Positions 14,245 to 16,327 of a stretch of 64,000 nucleotides of DNA are shown here, piece after piece (position 1 is the stretch's first letter; each line of letters opens with the position of its first letter). Made by a program: the position numbers and the translations under genes. Origin of the DNA: Psychrobacter cibarius (lineage in GTDB: Bacteria; Pseudomonadota; Gammaproteobacteria; Pseudomonadales; Moraxellaceae); NCBI RefSeq assembly GCF_016107535.1, contig NZ_JABASQ010000002.1, forward strand, positions 1-64,000, written 5' to 3'. Under the pieces are notes generated by a model. The model ran no database searches. It saw only the letters and a program-made list of their open reading frames with translations, and had not been told where the DNA came from.

Positions 14245-14496
14245 ATGAGTACCAGATTGAGAGGAAGTGGGCTGACTTGTGCCATGCTCGCACGAGGGGA
14301 TAAGCAGGTTTTATGTGCGGTCAGTAATGAGAGCGACGAGCAAGCGATGGCTAGTATCGATAGCACTGAATATGATTCGCTAAGGCACATTATTTCTTTT
14401 GATAACGATAAATTCTCCTGTAAAGAAGGCGTTGAATGGCAATGCGCCATACCAGTAAAAAAAGTAGAACTTTTTTATGATGATATAAATCTATAG
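14245..14496 (+). CDS. Small protein of unknown function, paralogue 1
   Basis: An 83-residue soluble, acidic protein with no family I recognise. It is clearly homologous to the next gene. Shared positions include RGS-LT--ML near the N-terminus, a CAV then SDE-AM motif, a central DS pair, an I-S--N--F-C segment, and W--A-P-K towards the end. AAGGA stands six bases before the ATG, which with the paralogy argues that it is a real gene. It has no signal peptide or membrane segment. The repeated Cys and Trp positions suggest a small compact fold. It lies just downstream of the MgtC-like gene but has its own ribosome binding site and a 133-bp spacer. Confidence 0.7.
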   Translation: MSTRLRGSGLTCAMLARGDKQVLCAVSNESDEQAMASIDSTEYDSLRHIISFDNDKFSCKEGVEWQCAIPVKKVELFYDDINL

Positions 14497-14628
14497 TCGC
14501 TTATAACTGAAAATTTGTGTATTAATTTGTAATACTTTAATTGAAAATAAAGCTACCCAAATTGCTAATAAACAGTTATATTCGTATAACATAATATACA
14601 AAATAGTACGAAGTTAGAGGTGAATATA

Positions 14629-14865
14629 GTGCTTAGAGGAAGTGAGCTGACTCGTGTAATGCTTGAGCATGGCTGCCATGAGATATGGTGTGCGGTAGAT
14701 GATAATAGTGATGAAGAAGCTATGTGTGATCAAGATTCAAACGATTTTACTGCCCAAATCGTGTCTTATCATAACAACAGATTCTATTGTACTGCTGGTA
14801 CTGCGTGGCTATTCGCTGTGCCAATCAAAATAACGGCGATGACACTGAGTGATGTAAAGCTCTAA
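14629..14865 (+). CDS. Small protein of unknown function, paralogue 2
   Basis: A 78-residue homologue of the preceding gene, sharing RGSELT, CAV, SDEEAM, a DS pair, I-S--NN-F-C and W--A-P-K. The start taken is the GTG at 14629 (LRGSELT), with GAGGTG about seven bases upstream. A GTG at 14620 would add three residues but overlaps that ribosome binding site. The pair is a tandem duplication that has diverged considerably yet kept the motif positions, which implies selection on the protein. A strong terminator follows. The function is unknown; the small size and pairing would fit an immunity or regulatory protein, but nothing shows that. Confidence 0.65.
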   Translation: MLRGSELTRVMLEHGCHEIWCAVDDNSDEEAMCDQDSNDFTAQIVSYHNNRFYCTAGTAWLFAVPIKITAMTLSDVKL

Positions 14866-14917
14866 ATACCTTTCTTTGTATTATTAAGCCATCGCCGACT
14901 CATCATTTGTATTATAA

Positions 14918-14942
14918 AAACCCACCTTATGGTGGGTTTTTC
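14918..14942. terminator. Intrinsic terminator after the small paralogue pair
   Basis: AAAACCCACC and GGTGGGTTTT form a 10-bp perfect stem with a 4-base loop; T- and A-tracts are part of the stem. Confidence 0.85.
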
Positions 14943-15051
14943 CTTGTAAGCAATATGCCGCTTTTTAGATTATTGCTCAAACAATACAGATTTTTGCAGA
15001 TAGTCATACTTGTATATGACAAGAACCTTTAACTAAGCATAAATTACAGGC

Positions 15052-15146
15052 AAAAAAAGAGCCCACAGAGGAGGAACTGTGGGCCGAGGAAAACTGATCG
15101 TGTAAAGGAACTACAGAGGCAGTGGTTGTGACCTATTGTTATTATG
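15052..15146 (-). ncRNA. Candidate small RNA with anti-Shine-Dalgarno terminator loop
   Basis: On the minus strand a perfect 8-bp stem (GCCCACAG and CTGTGGGC, 15061-15084) is followed by TC and seven T (15058-15052): a textbook intrinsic terminator with no protein gene upstream of it. The loop reads TTCCTCCT, complementary to a strong ribosome binding site. A possible promoter lies upstream: TATAGA at 15158-15153 with a TTGAAT at about 15192-15187, though the spacing is long. The predicted transcript is about 95 nt and holds further pyrimidine-rich CCTC/TTCC patches. C-rich-loop sRNAs of this style are known in other bacteria. I do not recognise a named family. The rest of 14943-15655 shows nothing else I can support. 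Confidence 0.45.
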
Positions 15147-15655
15147 AGTGTTTCTATATTAATTAATATTAGGGTGGTGGTGATTAATTCAATAACTGCA
15201 TATATTTACTTACATATTTAAGTGTACAAGTGTTTTTATCAGAATCGCTATCATAGCGCAATTGGCAGCGGTTTGGCTATTTTGGTTACAGGACATTACG
15301 TTTAGAGCTTATGAGAGAGAAAATTAATGTCGTATTTCCTCTCCAGTAGATGAGTCTTTTAGTTGTGTCATATCTAACATTGAAAAATGCGTAGCAAAGT
15401 TTTGTAGTTATATATGAAAGATTGATTAATTTTAATAGTCATTCCACTATAAAAATATTACTGCGTTAACCTCGCTTGAAGTATTAGATATACATCTACA
15501 CTGCGATGCCTTGTACTAGGTTTAAATTCAACCGACTGTTTTTAAATGCAACTAACTATATCGATAACTGAATAGCTAAAGAGATGGCATGACGACCTGC
15601 GTGAAAAATGCTAAGCTATCTACCATCAATATGTCTATATGAAACTGGGTTTGCC

Positions 15656-16327
15656 ATGACTGAGAATACGCATTTGCATACGCAGGATCCGCAAAATACC
15701 AAGAGTATTTTTAACTTGCCTAATAACCTTACTATCGCGCGGATTTTAATGATTCCGCTATTTGTCGCGATTGCTTATTGGCCACCTGCTATGGGAATTG
15801 GCATGCCTGCCATCTCAGACAATGTGATTGCGCGGGTCGGCATGAGCGAATTTAGTGATAGCTTATTACGTCATTTACTTTTGACTAGCGTTTTTATTAT
15901 TGCAGCGATTACTGATTGGCTTGATGGATATTTTGCCCGTAAGCTTAACGTTATGTCAGCCTTTGGTCGTTTTCTAGACCCTGTCGCTGATAAGTTAATG
16001 GTGGCGGCGGCGCTTATTATCTTGGTGCAATGGCATCCCAATATTATTATGGCAATCGCCGCGATTGTGATTATCTCGCGTGAGATTGCGGTGTCAGCGC
16101 TGCGTGAATGGATGGCAGAGCTGGGCAAAAGTACCAGTGTGGCGGTGTCGTATGTCGGCAAGCTAAAAACGACGTTTCAAATGGTGGCTATTACGGTACT
16201 TTTATTAAACTGGGAGTCGCTCGAAACAATCGGTTATGTGCTGATGGTTGCTGCTGTTATTTTGACACTATGGTCGATGATGATTTATCTCAAAGCGGCT
16301 TGGCCGTACCTAAAGCAAAGCGGGTAA
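15656..16327 (+). CDS. pgsA: CDP-diacylglycerol--glycerol-3-phosphate 3-phosphatidyltransferase
   Basis: An integral membrane enzyme of phospholipid synthesis. It makes phosphatidylglycerol phosphate from CDP-diacylglycerol and glycerol-3-phosphate. The CDP-alcohol phosphotransferase signature D-G-x2-A-R-x8-G-x3-D-x3-D is complete in DWLDGYFARKLNVMSAFGRF and the following LDPVADK. The family-typical start NLPNNLTIARILMIPLFV lies after a short polar N-terminus. An ATG at 15608 would extend it by 16 residues; neither start has a strong ribosome binding site, and 15656 is chosen because the extension is not needed by the family. It is longer than E. coli PgsA (182 residues) mainly through an insert after the first helix. 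Essential in most proteobacteria. Confidence 0.9.
   Translation: MTENTHLHTQDPQNTKSIFNLPNNLTIARILMIPLFVAIAYWPPAMGIGMPAISDNVIARVGMSEFSDSLLRHLLLTSVFIIAAITDWLDGYFARKLNVMSAFGRFLDPVADKLMVAAALIILVQWHPNIIMAIAAIVIISREIAVSALREWMAELGKSTSVAVSYVGKLKTTFQMVAITVLLLNWESLETIGYVLMVAAVILTLWSMMIYLKAAWPYLKQSG

Follow-up and report, generated by a model that had tools for sequence, protein, structure and literature searches.

A putative pgsA-linked small RNA of Psychrobacter with conserved anti-Shine-Dalgarno elements and RstA/BfmR-like promoter boxes

The small RNAs (sRNAs) LhrC1-5 of Listeria monocytogenes carry CU-rich anti-Shine-Dalgarno motifs in a linker and the terminator loop, require the envelope-stress response regulator LisR and block a Shine-Dalgarno site (PMC4132741). 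NmsRA and NmsRB of Neisseria meningitidis likewise carry a pair of anti-Shine-Dalgarno motifs, of which one lies in a loop and the other between stem-loops (PMC5362039). A U-rich stretch followed by a terminator and a U-tail is a known Hfq module, for which that paper lists a reference. Aar of Acinetobacter, about 100 nt long and from the same bacterial family as Psychrobacter, is described as blocking Shine-Dalgarno sites with a CUCC seed (PMC11472050, PMC12802169), and its paper calls it exclusive to Acinetobacter (PMC11472050). The analysis of a 64,000-nucleotide stretch of Psychrobacter DNA, hereafter the window, points to an RNA of similar design, encoded on the minus strand next to pgsA. 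Among the titles and abstract openings listed by searches of open-license papers, some of which named Psychrobacter or Moraxella, this RNA is unnamed, and Rfam 15 gave no match at gathering score across the whole 64-kb window, only weak lines. The suhB/mmgR RNAs of alphaproteobacteria have CCUCC-type loops like that of the new sRNA. Membership in their family (RF00519) was rejected, as the window reaches 18.6 bits against a gathering score of 41, and that model gave no line at E ≤ 2 with 10 homologous loci.

The locus ends in an intrinsic terminator on the minus strand (15060-15085), in which the arms 15085-15077 and 15068-15060 form eight Watson-Crick pairs and an outer G-U pair around the loop TTCCTCCT (15076-15069). 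The stem is followed by TC, the T of which is the outer wobble partner, and by seven T at 15058-15052, the U-tail of the RNA. The hairpin of the original prediction, an 8-bp stem with its loop, TC and seven T, is therefore present, with the outer pair to be added, and its description as an orphan agrees with the finding that no minus-strand open reading frame of at least 60 aa overlaps 14451-15870. The 95-nt stretch 15146-15052 folds unusually stably (z -5.18; 0 of 200 dinucleotide shuffles as stable), whereas a longer 194-nt form does not stand out (z -1.47; 12 of 200 shuffles as stable), and a simple scan over 3.5 kb found 2 terminators against 2.8 in shuffles. The scan and the longer fold speak against anything beyond chance; conservation was taken as decisive.

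Two alternatives bear directly on this hairpin. It might merely terminate the pgsA-side region or an unseen gene and yield no RNA of its own, in keeping with the roughly one quarter of nearby scanned terminators that look chance-like by simple criteria; this is very improbable given the missing minus-strand reading frame, the conserved promoters that belong to the locus itself and an invariant linker outside the hairpin. The other alternative, already raised in the original prediction, is transcription from the plus strand, with GGA motifs in that RNA acting to titrate CsrA. The plus-strand hairpin loop does read AGGAGGAA, but the T-run and the conserved promoters lie on the minus strand, and this account is almost certainly wrong. 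Membership among CsrA-titrating RNAs was likewise rejected, because the GGA hairpins are not on the transcribed strand. The comparisons thus point, with a very high probability, to a minus-strand sRNA gene whose 3' end is the hairpin.

The distribution of the gene was traced with several searches. A 501-bp region gave matches in 22 of 38 genomes, the window's own included, all from the single genus Psychrobacter. A covariance model of the conserved 3' module (R1, 88 positions, minus-strand window positions 15139-15052), built from 20 rows, matched 94 of 105 Psychrobacter genomes at E ≤ 0.01, with a single match in each except G096, whose two weak matches were both kept among the 95 genus loci. 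The objection anticipated at the outset, that stem and loop might be unconserved in related genomes, is thereby answered: conservation and paired changes were both found. Of the 11 genus genomes without a match, eight have a more distant pgsA (83-84% identity) with no TTTCCTC within 1.5 kb upstream, one (G041) has a pgsA of 95% identity but no TTTCCTC, one (G104) has the locus cut by a contig end with a P1-like box still in place, and in the last (G099) a search for pgsA found none. In a sample of 299 genomes of the family, R1 at E ≤ 0.1 matched 131, 94 of them in the genus and 37 outside it (g20, 5; g23, Moraxella, 9; g24, 1; g28, 22). An exact gapped pattern retrieved 62 stretches from 84,980 species, 59 from Psychrobacter and 3 from Moraxella, in a collection from which records very near the window's genome may be left out. 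These matches suggest a gene that is single-copy in Psychrobacter and has relatives in Moraxella-type genera.

Outside the genus, the matches in the 22 genomes of g28, putatively Acinetobacter, have E-values of 0.0006-0.1, and several of the seven g28 loci fetched share the design GTTTTCCAAGCC...GACCTTC. In four of these (L064, L067, L069, L070) a recurrent terminator with GTTTTCCAAGCC ahead of it and GACCTTC in its loop stands away from pgsA; it is perhaps a separate sRNA. No pgsA lies near the g28 matches in the five loci checked (the same four and L065), and six g28 genomes hold no TTTCCTC module adjoining pgsA; the g28 matches were left unassigned. Two g20 loci (L052, L053) have a terminator with a ACCTCCTT CCUCC-type loop that stands behind a coding frame and lacks TTTCCTC; they were excluded as orthologues. 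A separate hairpin with a CCTCC loop was also seen close to pgsA in genome G168 (L312).

The genomic setting adds to this picture. The divergent neighbor pgsA (15656-16327, plus strand; TIGR00560, 176.7 bits against a cut-off of 109.1) lies outside the RNA, and in 92 of the 95 genus loci it is found upstream of the module and oriented away from it; two of the remaining three (L025, L081) stop at contig ends, and the third (L073) is the second weak G096 match. Beyond the terminator the neighbors vary and include small open reading frames, an mgtC-like gene, a Rossmann-type oxidoreductase-like gene and acs. The sRNA accordingly travels with pgsA in this genus and is no leader or 3' UTR of any one neighbor. 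Thirteen g20 and g23 loci were fetched; six of them adjoin pgsA (L055, L058, L060-L063) and seven lie away from it (L051-L054, L056, L057, L059). In the window, a symmetric hairpin at 14917-14943, AAAACCCACC-TTAT-GGTGGGTTTT, is likely a two-way terminator beyond the sRNA, and the plus strand encodes two similar small proteins in tandem (14245-14496 and 14620-14865; 83 and 81 aa), both with an RGS-LT-ML start. The two proteins have no match in Pfam or NCBIfam and are next to the sRNA in some genus loci but not in others.

Paired changes were assessed in two alignments. The larger one (A2; 95 loci, 72 distinct rows) overstates support, because R1 guided its fitting and its rows share ancestry; in it, 90.5% of the pair cells are paired over the 72 distinct rows, 12 of 14 pairs show two-sided changes, and 74 cells are changed on both sides against a shuffle mean of 19.9, with 0 of 500 shuffles as high, while sliding the partners lowers pairing to 54% or less. 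Two-sided changes affect seven of the nine pairs of the terminator stem and all five pairs of a small variable hairpin, TGTAG-TTCCT-TTACA (15101-15115, minus strand), in which 80.8% of cells are paired. Support is weaker in the unfitted alignment (A1, 20 rows). Here the covariation score and the cells changed on both sides were equaled in 0 of 500 shuffles and the cells paired in 1 of 500, whereas two weaker measures, the pairs changed on both sides and the pair types, were equaled in 38 and 214 of 500, respectively. Sister-genus copies retain the design although their stems are spelled differently: CCCATTGC..GCAATGGG in L060, L062 and L063, and CCCACTG..CAGTGGG in L054, L056 and L057.

As far as the aligned copies go, the most constant element of the RNA is the linker UUUCCUC and not the loop. 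The single-stranded linker TTTTCCTC (15086-15093, minus strand) places TTTCCTC directly before the stem in all 72 distinct genus copies, and it is predicted to be unpaired with a mean probability of 0.82 (65 of 75 sequences exceed 0.7). The loop (15069-15076, minus strand), complementary to AGGAGGAA, contains CTCC in 67 of 72 distinct copies, predicted unpaired above 0.7 in 70 of 70 sequences, and the longer CCTCC in 56 of 72 when the loops alone are read, or in 58 if the next two columns are counted. In the five copies that have lost CTCC, L072 and L074 among them, TTTCCTC stays, and it is also retained in the Moraxella-group loci L055, L058 and L061, whose loops are without CTCC. Among 237 terminator-like hairpins in the fetched DNA, a redundant sample consisting mostly of flanks of this same locus, 48 follow TTTCCTC and 44 of these have CTCC in the loop; CTCC occurs in two of the other 189, both at weak R1 matches (L052, L089). 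The constancy and accessibility of the linker, together with the losses of CTCC from the loop, suggest that the linker matters at least as much as the loop. The loop that had first drawn attention as an anti-Shine-Dalgarno sequence is indeed predicted to be accessible and is well kept, but it is not the sole key element. The RNA accordingly offers, by predicted accessibility, the kind of conserved and accessible anti-Shine-Dalgarno element expected of trans-acting sRNAs in general.

The constancy of the linker could have another origin, in that UUUCCUC may be kept as a U-rich Hfq module and not as a seed, which would leave the CCUCC loop alone to meet targets. The U-rich stretch, the terminator and the U-tail do match the known Hfq module. 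Against this unlikely explanation, the CCUC part of the linker is as invariant as its U part, although Hfq alone would not need CCUC, and some orthologues without CTCC in the loop still keep UUUCCUC. The linker TTTTCCTC is likely to be both seed and U-rich Hfq module.

Upstream of the module, conserved elements were counted in all 95 loci or, once duplicates were removed, in 91 upstreams, and compared with single-nucleotide shuffles. The nearer promoter, P2 (15165-15192, minus strand), consists of TTGAAT at 15192-15187, a 16-nt spacer and AATATT at 15170-15165; its pattern (TTGAAT-like, 16 nt, TATCTT-like) recurs in 59 of 91 distinct upstreams, compared with 3.6 on average and at most 9 in shuffles. 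The window's own copy matches 8 of 12 consensus letters, which explains its absence from the simple scan, and is predicted to start transcription near 15158, giving an RNA of about 106 nt. It is preceded by a repeat box, TGTAAGTAAATATA (15201-15214, minus strand), which is weak in the window; the strict form is present in 19 of 91 distinct upstreams, and the strong boxes of other species read TGTAAGCAGATGTAAG. An illustrative survey of the box covers 54 loci and leaves out 47 with none or several regex matches. The element TTGTACAC (15222-15229, minus strand) is very constant. It is present in 67 of 91 distinct upstreams, against an average of 0.5 in shuffles, and stands 37 nt before the P2 -35 in 31 of the 51 that have both; to our knowledge it resembles no promoter element. 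The farther promoter, P1, combines a direct repeat, CGTAATGTCCTGTAAC (15285-15300, minus strand), with the -10 element TATGAT (15250-15255, minus strand), and is predicted to start near 15243 and to yield an RNA of about 192 nt. CGTAA-N5-TGTAA is found in 64 of 91 distinct upstreams and in none of 50 shuffles, the P1 box in 67 of 95 loci, and TATSAT follows the box start by 45 nt in 47 upstreams and by 44 nt in six; the window's repeat is the only exact match to its pattern in the genome. Over the 91 upstreams, 57 have the P1 box only, 12 the P2 box only, seven both and 15 neither.

These patterns describe two conserved, predicted promoter regions whose GTA-type direct repeats resemble RstA/BfmR boxes. 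The TATAGA proposed earlier as a -10 exists at 15158-15153, but the conserved promoter elements lie elsewhere, in P1 and P2; the proposed length of about 95 nt stays close to the 106 nt expected from P2, even though the promoter is now assigned differently. As such, the original prediction of a minus-strand sRNA holds for the gene itself, with its orphan terminator and accessible anti-Shine-Dalgarno loop, which conservation, paired changes and synteny support, but not for its emphasis on the loop as the one key element and on TATAGA. Comparison of sequences accordingly describes an independent, conserved RNA gene that has its own promoter and ends in an intrinsic terminator.

The form of the boxes raises the question of the regulator. 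The genome encodes eight OmpR-type effector domains. One protein, L195, scores 231 bits against BfmR (5hm6); against 2naz, deposited as RstA, it reaches 201 bits within residues 133-238. Its best NCBIfam model is RstA, at 271.6 bits and thus under the cut-off of 330. By these scores L195 is the BfmR orthologue, and BfmR and RstA are used as names of one regulator in PMC4888885. The Escherichia coli RstA consensus is given as TACATNTNGTTACA in PMC4117788. Of the 12 defined positions in its reverse complement, TGTAACNANATGTA, the strong P2 boxes depart from only 1, while the window's own boxes fit it poorly (mismatches at 2 of 12 positions for P2 and 4 of 12 for P1). The spacing of P1 equals that of the Pseudomonas aeruginosa BfmR motif, CGTAC(N0,5)CGTAC (PMC10924945), that protein being taken by its name. 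The tandem TGTA-N6-TGTA occurs in 22 of 91 upstreams, against 0.8 on average in shuffles, and the looser YGTA-N6-YGTA in 79 of 91. Genome-wide, the P1 motif with at most two mismatches shows no enrichment (48 matches against 94 in the reversed control), and the exact P2 box is found in six genomes, in each at the sRNA only.

The likeness of the boxes and the presence of a BfmR orthologue make BfmR the first regulator candidate, no more, and control of the sRNA by BfmR is a tentative proposal that has a good chance of proving wrong. The RNA may instead be driven from a housekeeping promoter or by a different OmpR-family regulator (CpxR-, OmpR- or PhoB-like), with the mode of pairing unchanged; this alternative falls somewhat short of an even chance. 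It gains from the number of OmpR-type effector domains in the genome, from the binding of similar tandem repeats by related regulators and from a box that is nearly unique in each genome, with a P1 form that is not enriched; the closeness of the strong P2 boxes to the published RstA box weighs against it.

The search for partners of the sRNA returned no conserved mRNA target. Sites of the form TGAGGAAA-N-ATG number 12, one counted twice, and hardly exceed the nine in the reversed control. The TGAGGAAA matches listed for 40 genomes include the sRNA's own antisense sites; also among the matches listed, TGAGGAAA stands directly before the ATG of MscL-, CbpA-, HtpX- and LolB-like frames (L304, L305, L310, L311; putative names). 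The best complement in the window's own genome lies at the ribosome-binding site (RBS) of a 53-aa protein, a site that is unconserved, with GAGGA in four of nine RBSs read from 16 genomes matched. For an entericidin-like lipoprotein gene (L326-L345), 21 places were matched and 18 copies read, and the RBS contains TGAGGA in 15 of these. It is a possible target with only 6-7 pairs allowed, and the TGAGGA may be an ordinary Shine-Dalgarno site. Such pairing sites are not found everywhere: among 50 crudely called window genes, for which the first ATG was taken as the start, at least six contiguous pairs form with the linker region in one and with the loop region in none.

The absence of a conserved target among those searched would fit a sponge or a protein-binding RNA that pairs with no mRNA; this is quite improbable, as two accessible anti-Shine-Dalgarno elements are kept genus-wide. 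A bolder idea starts from the loops CACCUCCU or UACCUCCU, present in 19 of 72 distinct copies, which presumably resemble the 3' tail of 16S rRNA. By imitating that tail, the loop might let the RNA, under envelope stress, act as a decoy that captures strong Shine-Dalgarno sites in general and broadly reshapes translation, with UUUCCUC serving specific targets; we regard this as a long shot. Repression of mRNAs by pairing at Shine-Dalgarno sites is the probable mode of action.

On balance, the analysis favors a response-regulator-driven sRNA that represses mRNAs by Shine-Dalgarno pairing. In such a model, the sRNA would be switched on by a response regulator of the OmpR family, for which the BfmR/RstA orthologue is the likeliest candidate, and Hfq would bind the U-rich linker together with the terminator and the U-tail. 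UUUCCUC and the CCUCC loop could then pair with Shine-Dalgarno regions such as GAGGAAA and AGGAGG and block translation of a restricted group of mRNAs, perhaps related to the envelope. The locus adds a genus-wide, vertically kept sRNA for bacteria whose sRNAs are scarce in the literature searched, and its defined 3' design and two promoter regions make regulator and targets directly testable. If BfmR drives the sRNA, BfmR/RstA would gain a post-transcriptional arm in Psychrobacter and perhaps in Moraxella.

The described systems nevertheless differ from the Psychrobacter RNA in several respects. LhrC has five copies, a UCCC motif and a Gram-positive host (PMC4132741), and the likeness considered is one of design; as to LisR, the upstream boxes seen in Psychrobacter are only RstA/BfmR-like. 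NmsR is a tandem pair acting on TCA-cycle mRNAs and, according to its paper, seemingly lacks the U-rich stretch that precedes the terminator in Psychrobacter (PMC5362039). Aar, compared by description only, has its seed at nucleotides 29-32 of 103, outside the terminator linker and loop (PMC11472050). By analogy, the sRNA would work most like LhrC and NmsR and resembles Aar in size and CUCC seed. Filed under none of these, it is best viewed as a putative sRNA family, uncatalogued and specific to its lineage, that would work in a manner already known from other sRNAs.
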